Source of the DNA: a virus
DNA: 25,056 bases
Direction: 5' to 3' (one strand)
Virus record (IMG/VR): IMGVR_UViG_3300007735_000521
Location: 1-25,056 of that record
How positions within the stretch are numbered: position 1 is the stretch's first letter; each line of letters opens with the position of its first letter. This document shows, one piece after another, positions 8,488 to 18,172 of this stretch. The notes beneath the pieces are model-generated. The model was not told the origin of the DNA, ran no database searches, and saw only the letters and a list, made by a program, of their open reading frames with translations. A program made the position numbers and the translations under genes.

Positions 8488-8807
8488 TGCCAACAGTAGG
8501 ATTTAAACCAAACAACCGAATGACCGCTGAAGAGATTGAAGTCCGAATTTGGGCAATCGTCATCTTCTCCCTGACCATGATTCTTCTTGGCTCTGTGGCT
8601 ATGTTCCTCTACAGCGTTTCATTCGTGACGCAACCAATGTCAGGCATGGCGGCAATTGACAAGGTATATACACAGCAAATCAATACCATCATGGTGTTTA
8701 TCACTGGTGTTTTGGGTGGTGTAGCTGGTCGTAGTGCTGTCTCAGCCAGTGCCAAGGCGATAGCCAAGGCAGATGCTGACGCTGACTCAGAGCCACCAAC
8801 ACCATGA
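8487..8807 (+). CDS. Holin-like two-span membrane protein
   Basis: The 106-residue protein has two hydrophobic segments: about 23-45 (IWAIVIFSLTMILLGSVAMF) and about 66-86 (INTIMVFITGVLGGVAGRSA). They are separated by a short polar loop, with a polar N-terminus and an Ala/Asp-rich charged C-terminal tail (AKADADADSEPP). Size, topology and position directly before the spanins and endolysin match a class II-like holin, which would permeabilise the inner membrane and release the endolysin. It starts in a TAATG junction with the lipoprotein gene and ends in an ATGA overlap with Rz. No holin family signature was recognised, so the call rests on topology and neighbourhood. Confidence 0.6.
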   Translation: MPTVGFKPNNRMTAEEIEVRIWAIVIFSLTMILLGSVAMFLYSVSFVTQPMSGMAAIDKVYTQQINTIMVFITGVLGGVAGRSAVSASAKAIAKADADADSEPPTP

Positions 8808-9286
8808 GCCTATTAAACCCTTATGTGATTCTTGGCATCGTCTTAGCGGTGCTAGGTTCGTTTGGCGGTGGGTACTGGAAAGGCTCAAAGGATGAGGTGA
8901 CTCGTCAGCAACTTGAGATTGCCAAACTCAATGCCGAGGCAAGGCAAAAGGAACAAGCACTGACGATGGCGGTTACACAAACAGCAACAGCTTTAAGGAC
9001 ATCAAATGAGAAGGCAAGACAGATTTCAAAAGAGCGTGATTTGGCTATTTCCTCTGGTTCTTTACGGCTGCGGCTTCCTGTCAAAGCAGCCAACTGCCCC
9101 ATACATACCCCCACAGATACCGCCCCTGCCCCCCGAGATAGCGGTGAAGAGAGAGCCGAACTTGACGCAGAGACTGCTCGATCTCTTGTCGCCATCACCG
9201 ACTCAGGTGATGAAGCCATTAGACAACTCACCGCCTGTCAACAAGCCTACGAATCCATCTACCAAACCTTGAAAGGAAAACCATGA
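8804..9286 (+). CDS. Rz: Inner-membrane spanin subunit (Rz-like)
   Basis: The 160-residue protein has an N-terminal signal-anchor (about residues 6-25, PYVILGIVLAVLGSFGGGYW), then a long charged coiled coil (DEVTRQQLEIAKLNAEARQK) and a periplasmic C-terminal part with helix-forming sequence. This is the typical i-spanin plan: the protein spans the inner membrane and binds the outer-membrane partner to fuse the two membranes in the last step of lysis. The identification is strengthened by the Rz1-type lipoprotein frame nested inside it (9006-9272). Start overlaps the holin-like stop by ATGA, and its own stop overlaps the endolysin start by ATGA. Confidence 0.8.
   Translation: MSLLNPYVILGIVLAVLGSFGGGYWKGSKDEVTRQQLEIAKLNAEARQKEQALTMAVTQTATALRTSNEKARQISKERDLAISSGSLRLRLPVKAANCPIHTPTDTAPAPRDSGEERAELDAETARSLVAITDSGDEAIRQLTACQQAYESIYQTLKGKP
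9006..9272 (+). CDS. Rz1: Outer-membrane spanin lipoprotein (Rz1-like), nested in Rz
   Basis: This 88-residue frame lies wholly inside Rz in another frame. It has a basic start, a hydrophobic core and a lipobox-like LVLYGC, giving a lipidated Cys near residue 22. The mature part is short and proline-rich (TAPYIPPQIPPLPPEI), the hallmark of Rz1-type o-spanins, which form the outer-membrane half of the spanin complex. The C-terminal part after about residue 60 is also Pro/Ser-rich. Nested Rz1 genes are classical in lambda-like phages. Another start could be used, but the signal peptide requires the frame to begin close to this ATG. Confidence 0.8.
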   Translation: MRRQDRFQKSVIWLFPLVLYGCGFLSKQPTAPYIPPQIPPLPPEIAVKREPNLTQRLLDLLSPSPTQVMKPLDNSPPVNKPTNPSTKP

Positions 9287-9744
9287 ACCTGTCAGCAAAC
9301 TTCACGCTAAAGGAACTTACCAGATCAGACACTGCCACTCGTTTGGGTCTGGACAATACGCCAGATGATGAGGCTTTAGAGAACCTGAAGACTCTTTGTG
9401 AGAAGGTACTTCAGCCAGTGCGTGACAACTTTGGTCGAGTTACTGTGAACTCTGGGTATCGTAGCCCTGAGTCAAATGCGGCTGTGGGTGGTTCTAAGAC
9501 ATCTGACCATTGCAAGGGTATGGCGGCTGATATTGAAGTTGATGGTGTTGATAACCCTGATTTAGCGCAATGGATTATGGATAACCTTGAGTACACACAG
9601 CTCATCCTTGAATTCTACGAAAGGGGTAAAGGGTCAAGTGGCTGGGTTCATGTTAGCTACGACCCAAACAACCTCAAGAAACAGGAATTGACCGCCACCA
9701 AGGTGGCAGGGAAAACTACTTATCTGAATGGATTAGTGGCGTAA
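9283..9744 (+). CDS. Endolysin, M15-family peptidase
   Basis: The 153-residue protein contains the zinc-peptidase motifs of the M15 (D-Ala-D-Ala carboxypeptidase/VanY-like) family: SGYRSP at about 57-62, SDHCKGMAADIEV with H76 and D83 as zinc ligands, and WVHVSY with H123 as third ligand. E110 in the LILEF segment could be the catalytic acid. Such proteins cut peptidoglycan stem peptides and act as phage endolysins. There is no signal peptide, so export through the holin is expected. It closes the lysis cassette, starting in an ATGA overlap with Rz. Its 3' end overlaps the convergent leftward operon by 29 nt. Confidence 0.88.
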   Translation: MNLSANFTLKELTRSDTATRLGLDNTPDDEALENLKTLCEKVLQPVRDNFGRVTVNSGYRSPESNAAVGGSKTSDHCKGMAADIEVDGVDNPDLAQWIMDNLEYTQLILEFYERGKGSSGWVHVSYDPNNLKKQELTATKVAGKTTYLNGLVA

Positions 9745-12537: not shown

Positions 12538-12624
12538 TCCCCCATAACTAATCCCCCACAGTTAACTCAACTATTCAATCACAAAGTGCTTGACCAATCA
12601 ATTAAAAGTCTCTAGACTCCCCCA
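12538..12624 (+). repeat. TCCCCCA repeats in the divergent control region
   Basis: TCCCCCA occurs at 12538-12544, 12552-12558 and 12618-12624, and TTAACT/ATAACT elements lie at 12521, 12544 and 12562. The first and last TCCCCCA copies lie next to the -35 of the leftward promoter and right after the -10 of the rightward promoter. They are candidate operators for the adjacent HTH protein. Confidence 0.4.
12590..12618 (+). promoter_or_regulatory. Rightward promoter giving a leaderless regulator mRNA
   Basis: TTGACC (12590-12595) and TAGACT (12613-12618) are spaced by exactly 17 bp. The ATG of the regulator is at 12629, ten bases after the -10, so transcription would start within a few bases of the start codon. 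The bases before the ATG are pyrimidine-rich with no ribosome site. Confidence 0.6.
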
Positions 12625-12628
12625 CACT

Positions 12629-12859
12629 ATGAACACTCCAACCATGCAAACCATTGATTCCATTAGGGAAAAGGCTGAAATCGCTGGCTACACCATCACA
12701 GATGTTGCTCGTCATGCTGGCTTTCACCCTGCCCAAGTTAGCCGTTACGCCACAGGTAAAACCATACCACTGGTCACCACCATCAGGAGGCTAGATGAGT
12801 CGGTAGATTCCCTGATTCAGGCTCGTTTTAAGGCTCTACAGGGGCTGTTAAATGACTAG
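12629..12859 (+). CDS. Cro/CI-type helix-turn-helix regulator
   Basis: I use the ATG at 12629 (76 residues) rather than a TTG at 12590 that lies in the promoter. Residues about 21-41 form an XRE-type helix-turn-helix: YTITDVARHAGFHPAQVSRY, followed by an ATGK-type turn. The C-terminus is a short helical tail with no dimerisation domain of the large CI type, so it is closer to Cro size. It sits next to the divergent promoters and probably binds them to set the lytic or lysogenic balance or early timing. The mRNA appears leaderless. The stop overlaps the resolvase gene by 8 nt. Confidence 0.8.
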   Translation: MNTPTMQTIDSIREKAEIAGYTITDVARHAGFHPAQVSRYATGKTIPLVTTIRRLDESVDSLIQARFKALQGLLND

Positions 12860-13325
12860 GCGCACCATTGGTATTGACTGTGGCTTAAATGGGGCTATAG
12901 CCCTTGTGGTGGATGGCGAACTGGTGAGGGTAGTGGATATGCCCACAGTGACCTTGGAACGCAACGGCAAGACCAAGCGTCAGGTGTCAGTGCCTGAGTT
13001 GGTGGGCATCATCAAGGAACTTGACCCCACCGAGGCATACGCTGAAAAAGTGTTTGCAATGGCAGGGCAAGGCGTAACCAGTGTATTTTCTCTAGGGCGC
13101 AGTCTTGGGGTGGTAGAAGGTGTACTCACAGCCCTACGCATCAAGACCACCTTGATGACACCGCAAACATGGATTAAAGCTATGGGCGTTGTTGGGGGAA
13201 AGGATGGGTCAAGAGCAAGGGCGATGGAGTTGTTCCCTGACCATCTAGCCCTGTTCAAGAGGGTCAAGGATGATGGGCGCAGTGATGCCAGTTTGATTGC
13301 ACTTTGGGGGTATCGCAATGGATAA
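12852..13325 (+). CDS. RuvC-like Holliday junction resolvase
   Basis: The 157-residue protein has an RNase H-fold opening with GIDCGLNGAIA (D9 catalytic), YAEKVFAM with E65, a later DDGRSDASLIALWG carrying D141/D145, and a MTPQTWIKAMGV block typical of RuvC-like proteins. It would cleave four-way DNA junctions during recombination or before packaging. The length is typical of phage RuvC-like enzymes. It overlaps the HTH gene at its start and the next small gene at its end, forming a coupled chain with the nuclease downstream. Confidence 0.82.
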   Translation: MTRRTIGIDCGLNGAIALVVDGELVRVVDMPTVTLERNGKTKRQVSVPELVGIIKELDPTEAYAEKVFAMAGQGVTSVFSLGRSLGVVEGVLTALRIKTTLMTPQTWIKAMGVVGGKDGSRARAMELFPDHLALFKRVKDDGRSDASLIALWGYRNG

Positions 13326-13542
13326 CAAAGAGAGAGAAACCTTGCGTGAGCACATCGTCTGGTTGGGTTCACAACTTGAACAGGAAAGACGGCAAAACCA
13401 ACACACCGTGGTTTTCTTAAAGAGATTGCTTGACCCTGAAGACCTCGGTCATGCGGTGTCGCATGAGGTGAGAAAACTCGCCTACCAATTACTCATTGAA
13501 CATCACCACATTGAAAGAGACTCATGGCAATCAAACAATTAA
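13318..13542 (+). CDS. Small hypothetical protein
   Basis: I use the ATG at 13318, inside the resolvase end and behind GGGGGT; a longer frame from 13297 lacks support. The product has 74 residues, is highly charged and helical (DNKERETLREHIVWLGSQLE, then EVRKLAYQLLIEHHHIERD), and is rich in His at the end. No known domain. The stop overlaps the following nuclease gene by 19 nt, so it is probably co-translated with DNA-metabolism genes. Confidence 0.65.
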   Translation: MDNKERETLREHIVWLGSQLEQERRQNQHTVVFLKRLLDPEDLGHAVSHEVRKLAYQLLIEHHHIERDSWQSNN

Positions 13543-14612
13543 ACATCAGAGCATCAGGTATCTCACGCACGATTGCTTGCCCTGCAAGCGTGAGGTTGTC
13601 GGCTCAAATGCCCTATCAGGAGAGTGGTGAGGCAGCGAAGATTGGCACTGCCATTCACGCCTTGGCAGAGCACTGCTACAAGCGTGACCTTGACCCTATG
13701 TTTTTCGCAAACAAGGTCTATGAAGGCATACAGATGACAGAGGAAAACTGCGAGTTTGCGATGCAACACTTGCAAGCCATTCGGGACATAGAGAAAGAGT
13801 TGGGAGAGGCAACAGTATCGGTTGAGAAGTTTCTACCCTACCAAGAAACCCCCATATACAAATGCGGTGGCACTGCTGATGTCATATGCATCAGTAAAGA
13901 CAAACGCAAGATCATCATTGCTGACTTGAAAACTGGTAGAGGCTATGTTGATGCTGAATCAGATCAACTCAAACTCTACGCACTGGCGGCTATGGAGTCT
14001 GAGGGTCTATACCAAGACATTGATACTGTAGAACTCTGGATTATCCAGCCTCATCATGGTGAGGTGAGAAAGCACACCATGACAACTCAGGAGTTGGTTG
14101 ATTGGGAGCATTACATATTGACCCCAGCGATTGAGAATGCACTAAACCCTGCATTCCCACCTATGCCATCAGACTCTGCTTGCCAGTATTGTGCAGCTAA
14201 GACAATCTGCCCTGCACAAGCAAACTTGGTTGAGGTGGTTCACTCAGCACCACCAGTAGAAGTCTTGACAGAAGAACAGATCAGCGTCTTGCTGACAAAG
14301 TTTGACATGGTTGAGGACTACATCAAGGCGGTGAGAGATCATGCCCTTAAACGCATGGAAAAGGGTGCTGTCATTCAAGGTTGGCAGCTCGCACCCAAGA
14401 GAGCAATCAGGTCATGGACTTCAGAAGAGAAAGCGATTGAGCAACTGGTTTTCCTTGGGCTACGAATCCATGAGATAACGAAAACCGAACTCTTGACTCC
14501 TGCACAGGTCGAGAAACTGCTACCCAAAGGCTTAAAGGAATCTATTGAACCGCTTACTTCTCGCATATCGTCAGGGCTGACGCTTGCCAGAGACAAGAGT
14601 ATTGGTCAATAA
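13524..14612 (+). CDS. PD-(D/E)XK exonuclease, DUF2800/Cas4-like, with Fe-S cysteines
   Basis: The 362-residue protein has the RecB-family nuclease pattern. An early TAIHALAEH (H45) is followed by GGTADVICI with D119 and IIADLKTGRG with D134 and K136, giving the D...DxK metal site, and then SDQLKLYALAA (Q148, Y152). Four cysteines, C19 near the N-terminus and C220, C223 and C229 in CQYCAAKTIC, match the 4Fe-4S cluster of AddB/Cas4-like nucleases. It probably trims DNA ends in recombination together with the ssDNA-binding protein and resolvase. A C-terminal helical part of about 120 residues follows. I am confident of the nuclease fold. Confidence 0.82.
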   Translation: MAIKQLNIRASGISRTIACPASVRLSAQMPYQESGEAAKIGTAIHALAEHCYKRDLDPMFFANKVYEGIQMTEENCEFAMQHLQAIRDIEKELGEATVSVEKFLPYQETPIYKCGGTADVICISKDKRKIIIADLKTGRGYVDAESDQLKLYALAAMESEGLYQDIDTVELWIIQPHHGEVRKHTMTTQELVDWEHYILTPAIENALNPAFPPMPSDSACQYCAAKTICPAQANLVEVVHSAPPVEVLTEEQISVLLTKFDMVEDYIKAVRDHALKRMEKGAVIQGWQLAPKRAIRSWTSEEKAIEQLVFLGLRIHEITKTELLTPAQVEKLLPKGLKESIEPLTSRISSGLTLARDKSIGQ

Positions 14613-15349: not shown

Positions 15350-17392
15350 ATGTCAGCACAACAAATAGCCACTACCTTGGGCAATGCCAAGAAGGTAGGC
15401 AATGGTTACCTAGCAAGTTGTCCAGTACCTCGCCACGGTCAGGGCAATGGCGACAAGAACCCAAGTCTTTCAGTGACAGATGGTGACGATGGCAATGTAC
15501 TTTTTAAGTGCCACGGTGGGTGCGATCAGCAAGAGGTCTTCAATACCATCAAGGACATGGGATTACTCCCACAGTTACCAGATAGACCAGAATATCTTTC
15601 AAATGTCAGACCTATCATGCCAGCTATTCCAGTGTTAGAGCATGAATGGTTCTACACAGATGAAAACGAGATGCCCTTGTTTGTTAAGCAAAGGTACAAG
15701 ACCTTTGATGCCAAAGGCAAGACCTACAAGACTCTCAGAATCTTGGCTGATGGCACTCGGGTTGGGAAGTTGGGAGATTGCAGAATTGTCCCCTACCGAC
15801 TCCCCGAGCTGCTACAGGCGGTTACCAATGGGAAGGTGGTCTATATAGCTGAAGGCGAGAAGGCGGTAGATGCCTTATGCAGTCTGGGGGTCACGGCTAC
15901 CACCTCACACGCTGGCGCAGGAGGTTGGAATCAAGACTTGAACCAATACTTTGATGGCGCAAATGTCGTTGTTGTGCCTGATAACGATGTCGCTGGGTGG
16001 AGTTATGCCGACAAGATTGTCGAATCCTTACTGCCTGTGGTCAAAACCATCAGGGTCTTGGATTTGGGGTTGGACAAGCCAAAGGAAGACGCATACGAGT
16101 TTGTTCACCAATATGGCGGTACTAAGGAAACCCTAGCTGCCAAAGCCAAGGGTGCAAAGGTTTTGGGGCATGAGGATGTCATCTTGATACCCAAAAGACT
16201 GAGAGAGACACCCCCACCACCACCTGACCCTTTCCTCTCCCACGCTAACGAGCCAAAGCTTGAGCAGTCCAACACCAGAAAGAAGTTATTGGTCGAGTCT
16301 TGGGACTCCATTAAGGATGAACCAGTGGAATGGCTGGTGGAGTCGATAGTCCCAAAGAAAGGATTTGTAGCCCTGTACGCACCACCAGCGTCATGGAAGT
16401 CATTTATCTCGCTAGATTTAGCCGAGGCAATTGCTACAGGTCGGGATTGGATGGGCTACAAAATACCCAAGAAAGGGGCTGTGCTGTATATATGCGGTGA
16501 AGGTCATGGCGGTATGGGCGCAAGGGTGAAGGCTTGCAAGATACAGAACAAGAGTCCTGATGGGGTGAATCTGTACATTATTAGGGCGCAACTCAACCTG
16601 AGATCGTCACCAGAAGACTTTGCGGAGTTGTTGAATGCCATCAACGAGTTGATTGCTGAGATAGATGAACCCTTGGAACTCATCATCTTGGACACCCTGA
16701 TGCGGATGTCTGGCGGTGGCTTTAACGAGAACTCATCCGAGGATATGGGTGGGTTTATCACCCAAGCAGGGAAGTTACAGGAAATCTTTGAGTGTGCCTT
16801 GATGGTCATTCACCATAGCGGTAAGGATGTCACCAAGGGTCTTAGAGGTCATAGTTCGCTGCTTGGGGCAGTGGACACAGAACTTGAGATAGCCAGACAG
16901 GATTTAGTCATCAATGCATCAGATGCAAGCGTGATAGGGAATGCCATCTTGACCGTGAGCAAGCAAAAAGATGGGGCAGACAGTATCCAGATCGGCATTG
17001 AAATCGTACTGGTGGAGATTGGAACATCAGATTTAGGCTTTGAAATCAACACTTCACTGGCTATCAGGCATAACCAAGAGATTGCTGGGAGTAACTCTAA
17101 AGGTAGTAAAAACAATGCTGGTAGCGGTAAAAATCAACGGTTGGAGATGGATTCGTTGATGAAGGTTATTAAATCTAAAGGTTCATACCGTGAAGTGGAT
17201 GGTACTAGTAGGTATGGCGTGAGTTTGGAGGATTGGAGGGCTGAATTTTGGTCTATGAAGGGCTGCACTGAGGAGGATAAAACGACTTTTAAGGTAGCTT
17301 GGCTTCGTGCTAGAGAGAGGTTGGTAGCCACCAATAAGGTCGTGATTGGGTCTGGTTGGGTGTGGTTGAAGTCGAGTTTGGAAAACTTCTGA
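15350..17392 (+). CDS. Bifunctional primase-helicase (zinc ribbon, TOPRIM, RepA-like ATPase)
   Basis: The 680-residue protein has an N-terminal zinc ribbon with C24, H29, C54 and C58 (ASCPVPRH, FKCHGGC). A TOPRIM domain follows, with IAEGEKAVDAL (E168/E170) and VVVPDNDVAGW (D211, D213). A Pro-rich linker (PPPPPDPF) leads to an ATPase domain whose Walker A is APPASWKS (K350), a RepA/AAA-type variant, with Walker B LIILDTL (D448) and HHSGKD downstream. The C-terminus is basic and helical. It would make primers and unwind DNA at the fork, the main replication protein of this phage. No DNA polymerase gene is seen in the window, so it probably uses the host polymerase. Confidence 0.88.
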   Translation: MSAQQIATTLGNAKKVGNGYLASCPVPRHGQGNGDKNPSLSVTDGDDGNVLFKCHGGCDQQEVFNTIKDMGLLPQLPDRPEYLSNVRPIMPAIPVLEHEWFYTDENEMPLFVKQRYKTFDAKGKTYKTLRILADGTRVGKLGDCRIVPYRLPELLQAVTNGKVVYIAEGEKAVDALCSLGVTATTSHAGAGGWNQDLNQYFDGANVVVVPDNDVAGWSYADKIVESLLPVVKTIRVLDLGLDKPKEDAYEFVHQYGGTKETLAAKAKGAKVLGHEDVILIPKRLRETPPPPPDPFLSHANEPKLEQSNTRKKLLVESWDSIKDEPVEWLVESIVPKKGFVALYAPPASWKSFISLDLAEAIATGRDWMGYKIPKKGAVLYICGEGHGGMGARVKACKIQNKSPDGVNLYIIRAQLNLRSSPEDFAELLNAINELIAEIDEPLELIILDTLMRMSGGGFNENSSEDMGGFITQAGKLQEIFECALMVIHHSGKDVTKGLRGHSSLLGAVDTELEIARQDLVINASDASVIGNAILTVSKQKDGADSIQIGIEIVLVEIGTSDLGFEINTSLAIRHNQEIAGSNSKGSKNNAGSGKNQRLEMDSLMKVIKSKGSYREVDGTSRYGVSLEDWRAEFWSMKGCTEEDKTTFKVAWLRARERLVATNKVVIGSGWVWLKSSLENF

Positions 17393-17408
17393 TATGTGTT
17401 TTTATCCA

Positions 17409-17518
17409 GTAACAAACGATACAAACGGTAACAAAGTAACTTTTGTTACTCCCGAGGAGATGGTTACAAACCACCTCAGGTCTATGTACCTGAGGTTTGT
17501 AACCTGTCACTTTGTAAC
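17409..17518. repeat. Iteron-like GWWACAAAS repeats with a large stem-loop
   Basis: Seven copies close to G(T/A)(T/A)ACAAA(C/G) lie in 110 bp. On the plus strand they are 17409 GTAACAAAC, 17418 GATACAAAC, 17428 GTAACAAAG and 17463 GTTACAAAC. On the minus strand they are 17440-17449, 17495-17503 and 17510-17518. The first three are spaced 9-10 bp, about one helical turn. Within the group GGTTACAAACC(ACC)TCAGGT at 17462-17481 pairs with 17488-17504 to form a 17-bp stem with a 3-nt bulge and 6-nt loop. It is intergenic between the primase-helicase and an unknown gene. It may be a replication origin or an operator. Confidence 0.65.
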
Positions 17519-17539
17519 TTTATAAATTTTAGAAGGAAA

Positions 17540-18172
17540 ATGAAAATGAGTCGATCTAGGTCAAGAAGAGAAGTGCCCCAAGTTGAGGTCAAGAGGTATG
17601 AGCCAACCACTTGGGATATTCAGGCGAGTGCTTGCCTCACCGAATTGGAGGTGAGAAAGGAGCAACATCATCAGAAATGGGGTTGCGAGAGATTGATTAC
17701 TTTAGTTGACACGGTATTTAGGGAGAGGTTTTGGGTGCAAATGGCTAGGGTTTGGGATGCCACTGATGCCAAGGATATTGAGAGACTGAGGAAGGCGGTC
17801 TACGGCATGGTCAAAGGGTACGATGCTTTGGAAGCGTGGGCAGTGGACAATGGAGTTCCACAAAACCCACCCATCAGGTTTTTGGAGTGGAAGACTTTGG
17901 ATGGGAAAATCATGGCAGTTGTCCAGACCGTCAACGAAAGCCTAGACTTGCAGCGAGAACGCAAAGACTTGAATTGGATTTGGACACTGGAAGAGTTTGA
18001 GATTGTCTTGGCTGACCCATTGGTGCAAGAGATCATGGCAATCAAAGCACTCGACCCCACCGCACAGGTCAAGATGTTCAAGAAAGGTGAATCAGGGTTT
18101 GAAGACATGGAAGACGACCTCCATGTTTTGGAGGGTGAGCCAGCACCTAAACTTTTCAATGTGAAGAGGTGA
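17540..18172 (+). CDS. Hypothetical protein between two replication-like cis regions
   Basis: The 210-residue protein has two possible starts, ATG 17540 and ATG 17546, behind AGAAGG; the second has better spacing. It is mostly helical with an Arg-rich N-terminus (SRSRSRREVPQVEVKR), an aromatic centre (ERFWVQMARVWDATDAKD, then MVKGYDALEAWAVDNG) and a charged C-terminal half. There is no zinc motif, signal or membrane span. Similar proteins are seen upstream of terminase genes in phages, without known function. Its place between the iteron-like cluster and the DnaA-box region suggests it could bind one of them or regulate packaging. This is inference. Confidence 0.6.
   Translation: MKMSRSRSRREVPQVEVKRYEPTTWDIQASACLTELEVRKEQHHQKWGCERLITLVDTVFRERFWVQMARVWDATDAKDIERLRKAVYGMVKGYDALEAWAVDNGVPQNPPIRFLEWKTLDGKIMAVVQTVNESLDLQRERKDLNWIWTLEEFEIVLADPLVQEIMAIKALDPTAQVKMFKKGESGFEDMEDDLHVLEGEPAPKLFNVKR

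Follow-up and report, generated by a model that had tools for sequence, protein, structure and literature searches.

A proposed replication origin behind a phage primase-helicase gene, with iterons that co-vary with the winged helix of the enzyme

The 25,056-base virus fragment IMGVR_UViG_3300007735_000521, analysed over its full length and referred to below as the window, carries a dense group of short repeats in the gap directly behind a primase-helicase gene. What does this cluster do, and which protein reads it? An earlier note on this DNA had proposed that the repeats bind an initiator or a master regulator, and had named the 210-aa product of the following gene and a helix-turn-helix (HTH) protein as binders. 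The initiator part of that proposal is supported by covariation, as described below; the two named binders are not.

Repeats and hairpin in the gap

The features discussed here are listed in Table 1. Seven near-identical 9-mers (GWWACAAAS) in both orientations had been reported in the gap. Six of them are exact (iterons 1-3 and 5-7), and the seventh, iteron 4, fits only when its last base is relaxed. The size given for the gap and the start spacings of 9 and 10 bp for iterons 1-3 proved correct. All six exact matches of the 25-kb record lie inside the gap and none elsewhere, against an average of 2.3 matches in shuffles of the whole window. Short repeats are thus confined to one intergenic site, as in iteron-type origins. 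In the relatives described below, the repeats specific to each class are ~107-fold enriched in the gap compared with the rest of the locus (median, 58 loci). The suggested minimum of the cumulative GC skew near 17.4 kb was not found; the skew climbs steadily through this position. In the window GC skew tracks gene strand and is uninformative as origin evidence. The A+T-rich stretch that follows iteron 7 is a possible candidate for an unwinding element.

Table 1. Positions of the features discussed in the text
Feature	Position	Strand	Remark
Primase-helicase, 680 aa	15350..17392	+	TOPRIM-type primase, RepA-type RecA-like helicase, C-terminal winged helix
C-terminal winged-helix domain, residues 589-680	17114..17389	+	Proposed iteron-binding domain; AlphaFold2 model
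Codons 648 (K) and 649 (V), helix 3	17291..17296	+	Specificity residues, by association ranking
Intergenic gap	17393..17539 (147 nt)	+	Proposed replication origin: iterons and central hairpin
Iteron 1, GTAACAAAC	17409..17417	+	Exact GWWACAAAS match
Iteron 2, GATACAAAC	17418..17426	+	Exact GWWACAAAS match
Iteron 3, GTAACAAAG	17428..17436	+	Exact GWWACAAAS match
Iteron 4, GTAACAAAA, relaxed, inverted	17441..17449	-	Fits GWWACAAAS only with last base relaxed
Iteron 5, GTTACAAAC	17463..17471	+	Outer left arm of hairpin
Iteron 6, GTTACAAAC, inverted	17495..17503	-	Outer right arm of hairpin
Iteron 7, GTTACAAAG, inverted	17510..17518	-	Exact GWWACAAAS match
Hairpin, 17 bp (9+8)	17462..17504	+	Fold, covariation
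Hairpin outer arms	17462-17470/17496-17504		
Hairpin bulge, 3 nt	17471-17473		
Hairpin inner stem	17474-17481/17488-17495		
Hairpin loop, 6 nt	17482-17487		Loop region GTCTAT
A+T-rich stretch ahead of next start codon	17519..17539	+	Sequence
210-aa conserved protein	17540..18172	+	Function not assigned by family; excluded as iteron reader

The 17-bp stem with a 3-nt bulge that had been read inside the cluster is present, and the gap folds better than shuffled versions (z -3.3). In 20 distinct relatives that share the type of the window, standard pairs make up 99.4% of the pair cells of the hairpin, double-sided changes occur at eight pairs, and the covariation score was reached by no shuffle. 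By this comparison of sequences, the hairpin is shown to be under structural selection. Of the 140 loci, 137 have a stable hairpin at the loop motif TCTA, and the loop GTCTA is retained among relatives while the hairpin covaries base by base. In the inner stem, all 160 pair cells are G-C or A-T/U and none is G-U, which leans towards a DNA role for the hairpin.

Beside or instead of such a role, the hairpin could act as RNA (in processing, as an attenuator or in translational control of the 210-aa protein), as it would be part of the operon transcript and is strongly structured and covarying. We consider this quite unlikely. The outer arms are iterons and vary with the DNA-binding domain described below, the lack of G-U pairs would be odd for an RNA, no Rfam RNA family or tRNA match was found for the region, and a search of the + strand at the hairpin yielded neither a sigma-70 promoter nor a terminator or terminator tail.

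Relatives of the locus and switching of the repeats

No cultured phage matched the window by DNA, and protein matches were only partial and of low identity. Relatives were collected from viral contigs, 80 at first and more by further scans, giving 140 distinct loci after deduplication. The position and plan of the gap are kept in all aligned relatives (140 distinct loci). Comparison with related phages therefore upheld the expected conservation in part: layout and hairpin are conserved, but the sequence of the repeats is not and changes together with its probable reader.

The repeats of a locus switch class in concert. GWWACAAA is found in the window and in locus L001, G(T/G/A)GACAAA (the GRGACAAA class) in most relatives of 70-92% identity, and TGGACAAA, that is (T/C)GGACAAA, in another group; the remaining relatives have GTTACAA, GTAACAA, G(A/C)GACAA, CTTACAA or GATCAGAA. 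Window and locus L002 illustrate such a switch. Their enzymes are 91% identical, with K649V among the differences; at the specificity positions of the iterons 16 of 27 bases differ (59%), against 17 of 138 at the other positions of the gap (12%).

Several loci carry additional repeats. In five of them (L006, L008, L016, L018 and L019) another set of GGGACAAA repeats, upstream of the normal origin, occupies the first ~150 nt after the primase-helicase stop codon, and TGCTTAA-like repeats lie between the two; this looks like a duplicated origin. An extra inverted pair lies right after the stop codon in two further groups, both with a longer gap and two iteron clusters: TTGTAACTTGTAAC in L103, L107, L112, L117 and L121, and TTGTTACTTTGTTAC in L078-L080.

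Winged-helix residues and the bases of the iterons

The primase-helicase matches the dnaG model at residues 150-259 (E 5e-6), indicating a TOPRIM-type primase, and AAA_25 at residues 314-493 (E 3e-35), indicating a RepA-type RecA-like helicase; its plasmid matches are annotated as 'helicase RepA family protein'. Sequence searches against solved structures gave nothing for the full-length enzyme and no convincing match to its C-terminal domain. AlphaFold2 models the last 92 residues as a winged helix (pLDDT 85.6), with helix 3 at residues 641-660. The model resembles the winged helices of CRP and ORC with Z-scores of 7-8 and a best Foldseek E-value of 0.03, values that indicate a common fold only. 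Residues 648, 649 and 653 are in the register that we take to be that of CRP residues 180, 181 and 185.

Every position of the enzyme (~680) was scored by the uncertainty coefficient against the three bases that precede ACAA. Residue 649 ranked first of ~680 for base 3, the base directly before ACAA (0.98), and residue 648 ranked first for base 1 (0.91). In the 121 labelled loci, the combinations of residue 649 with base 3 were K-G (61), Q-G (1), T-T (34), M-A (18), V-A (6) and V-T (1). Hence all 121 follow the rule that K or Q goes with G, T with T, M with A, and V with A or T, the last being a departure from a strict one-to-one code. When the rule was fixed on the first 80 loci and applied to the later ones, it held in 59 of 59, although the independence of these held-out loci from the first set is not complete. 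At the level of single repeats, 723 of 798 agreed. On a tree built from residues 1-560 of the enzyme only, 29 changes were counted at residue 649 and 28 at base 3. Among supported branches, independent pairs agreed in 8 of 8 cases for K/Q-G (p 0.008) and in 9 of 9 for T-T (p 0.004), showing that the link between residue and base does not stem from shared ancestry. For residue 648 and base 1, three independent pairs were informative, and the link was not significant.

One locus outside the labelled set, L137, breaks the simple rule: it combines K649 with GTTACG repeats, rather than GRGACAA, and has aspartate at position 653, which is otherwise arginine. This suggests that residue 653 may read the ACAA core.

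In 14 loci that lack the F..AW segment, the last 95 residues of the enzyme are of another type (31-36% identity in alignments that span most of the domain). Outside this segment, the enzyme shares 78-96% identity with that of other loci. Where it was matched in these loci, the 210-aa protein is 88-96% identical in six and 67% in one. Twelve of the 14 have a gap that starts at the repeats, with GATCAGAA or GATCGGAA iterons and the GTCTA hairpin kept. L197 and L210 are the two exceptions: their primase-helicase reading frame continues through the repeats, so that GATCAGAA-type iterons lie inside the frame and the protein ends in ...NNQQSEAIRSDQKSDASDDQKSESETRVYKTRSF; here the tail of the protein seems to be translated from the origin.

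By comparison, therefore, the iterons and the winged helix of the primase-helicase are shown to co-vary residue by base, as far as can be read from their sequences, and since the repeats change in step with two C-terminal residues, the enzyme itself is pointed to as the reader. The second feature of an iteron-type origin, recognition by the replicon's own initiator, is thus indicated by covariation.

It could be argued that the true reader of the repeats is a host factor, the HTH protein or the 210-aa protein, and that the association with the primase-helicase reflects linkage only. The C-terminal codons adjoin the gap, being less than 130 bp from the first iteron, and would travel with it, so that linkage adds to the association. 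However, the score peaks at residue 649 and not at the residues nearest the gap, dropping to between 0 and 0.57 at residues 660-680, and linkage leaves unexplained that seven repeats change jointly but the adjacent hairpin does not. Neither named candidate tracks the iterons. The best position of the 210-aa protein reached 0.52, against 0.99 for residue 649 in the same loci, and the protein stays 88-96% identical in six loci with a swapped domain. The HTH protein (12590-12859) has an identical recognition segment in loci with different iterons. Both were rejected as readers, and another reader is very improbable.

The 210-aa protein has no family match, and comparison of its model with the PDB gave weak matches only, none with an E-value below 0.001. 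Its matches in the viral library are mostly uncharacterised phage proteins; one is annotated as a terminase small subunit.

Some distant homologues of the enzyme also have repeats behind their gene: GGGGAC in L267 (Hyphomicrobiales; the weaker case against shuffles) and, strong against shuffles, TGTCCC in L277 (Acidiphilium), GTCACG in L268 (Myxococcota) and nine GATACA matches in L271 (Streptomyces), the last two loci each with a hairpin. No iteron cluster was found behind the gene in several others (L347, L269, L272, L274, L291 and more), most of whose matches stop short of the C-terminal domain; in L348 there is no gap behind the gene. As to the host, bacterial genome contigs yielded distant homologues only. 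The clusters on bacterial contigs also bear on the idea that the repeats serve packaging (pac/cos) or partition, which the terminase genes ~1.5 kb downstream might bring to mind. With such clusters behind distant homologues, and with the primase-helicase rather than a terminase as the covarying reader, this idea is scarcely credible.

A proposed origin and its known counterparts

The reading that best accounts for these data, and to which we give a probability of about 0.8, is that the gap is the replication origin of the phage. The C-terminal winged helix would bind the iterons that lie immediately behind its own gene, and the bound enzyme would load its helicase. Loading would open the DNA and expose the hairpin, at whose conserved GTCTA loop the primase domain of the same enzyme would land or start; the hairpin may thus be a single-strand priming site. 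Origin activity of the gap is what we infer from repeats, hairpin and covariation together.

The same binding could alternatively serve an operator, at which the primase-helicase or its winged helix controls transcription into the 210-aa gene and beyond rather than replication. The cluster lies directly ahead of the start codon of that gene, and initiators often double as regulators of transcription. On the other hand, the reader is part of a protein with primase and helicase domains, the + strand of the gap yielded no good promoter, the repeats are absent from all other promoter regions of the window including that of the enzyme itself, and an operator has no need for a covarying central hairpin. 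An operator is therefore unlikely, if the least so of the alternatives considered.

The general plan of the proposed origin is already known from SaPI Rep, P4 alpha, RSF1010 and pRN1. To our knowledge, SaPI Rep and SCCmec Cch2 have a helicase of SF3 or MCM-like type and no fused TOPRIM primase. The enzyme described here has AAA_25 instead, that is, a RepA-type RecA-like helicase fused to a TOPRIM primase, together with a central covarying hairpin. What SaPI Rep and Cch2 have in common with it is C-terminal recognition of an origin downstream of the gene: their C-terminal domain binds iterons just downstream of their own gene (PMC7581432), and covariation and position indicate the same here.

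With P4 alpha our enzyme shares the presence of a TOPRIM-type primase and a winged helix in one polypeptide. P4 alpha has an SF3 helicase, which we did not find in the window's enzyme, and a two-part origin (ori and crr). The present helicase is of another family, and the proposed origin is a single one, 3' of the gene, with the hairpin within the iteron array. In P4 alpha the winged helix, joined to the primase and the helicase, binds the origin repeats (PMC4234260).

RSF1010 encodes the RepA helicase, the RepB' primase and RepC, and has iterons and the ssiA and ssiB hairpins at which the primase starts (PMC4234260). A RepA-type helicase, iterons and a hairpin recur here, priming at the hairpin being putative. 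The three proteins of RSF1010 are separate, whereas here primase and winged helix lie within the same 680-aa protein as the helicase, so that one polypeptide would do all three tasks, with one hairpin inside the iteron array.

In replicons of the pRN1/Bordetella phage BIP-1 type, a stem-loop conserved in structure and variable in sequence lies directly 3' of a gene for a primase, helicase and winged helix, and that of pRN1 is required for replication (PMC4234260). The hairpin behind the present gene is likewise a structure-conserved stem-loop 3' of a primase-helicase gene. These replicons have an archaeo-eukaryotic primase and an SF3 helicase, with no iterons reported (PMC4234260), unlike the primase, helicase and repeats found here. 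By its helicase type, then, the enzyme is outside the SaPI, P4 and pRN1 families, but by analogy it would work like them.

A co-varying, swappable pair of DNA-binding domain and origin is also found in the RepA_N initiators of PLEs, in which the module has been swapped repeatedly while the rest stays (PMC8263062), under selection by an origin-directed nuclease (PMC8263062). These initiators belong to a different protein family and form two origin groups, not a series at residue level. New in the present case are the architecture of the enzyme, the combination of iterons with a central hairpin and the residue-to-base specificity code with its ~29 natural switches.

A wider reading, put forward tentatively and at slightly less than even odds, is that these loci represent a self-contained family of tailed-phage initiators. 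One polypeptide would equal RSF1010 RepA, RepB' and RepC together, its winged helix would follow a near one-residue-to-one-base code, and specificity would have been switched ~29 times (121 loci), both through exchange of the domain and through point changes accompanied by a joint rewriting of all iterons. If this is true, co-infecting relatives could avoid cross-replication or origin-targeting parasites. A likely origin is placed and its putative initiator named for a group of uncultured phages without a close cultured match, and ~120 loci with at least seven iteron types form a natural series in which two winged-helix amino acids are tied to the bases read. Two questions thereby become testable: how an initiator and its origin shift their specificity jointly, and why phages do so again and again.

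No gene for a DNA polymerase turned up in the frames of the window that were examined. A DUF2800/PD-(D/E)XK exonuclease frame (13524-14612) lies beside the replication gene, with a RuvC-like resolvase frame (12852-13325) upstream of it. In another part of the window, a short lipoprotein-like frame (LYGCG, 9006-9272) is nested in that of a membrane-anchored coiled protein (8804-9286); the two look like an Rz/Rz1 spanin pair, and a peptidase-like endolysin frame follows at 9283-9744.
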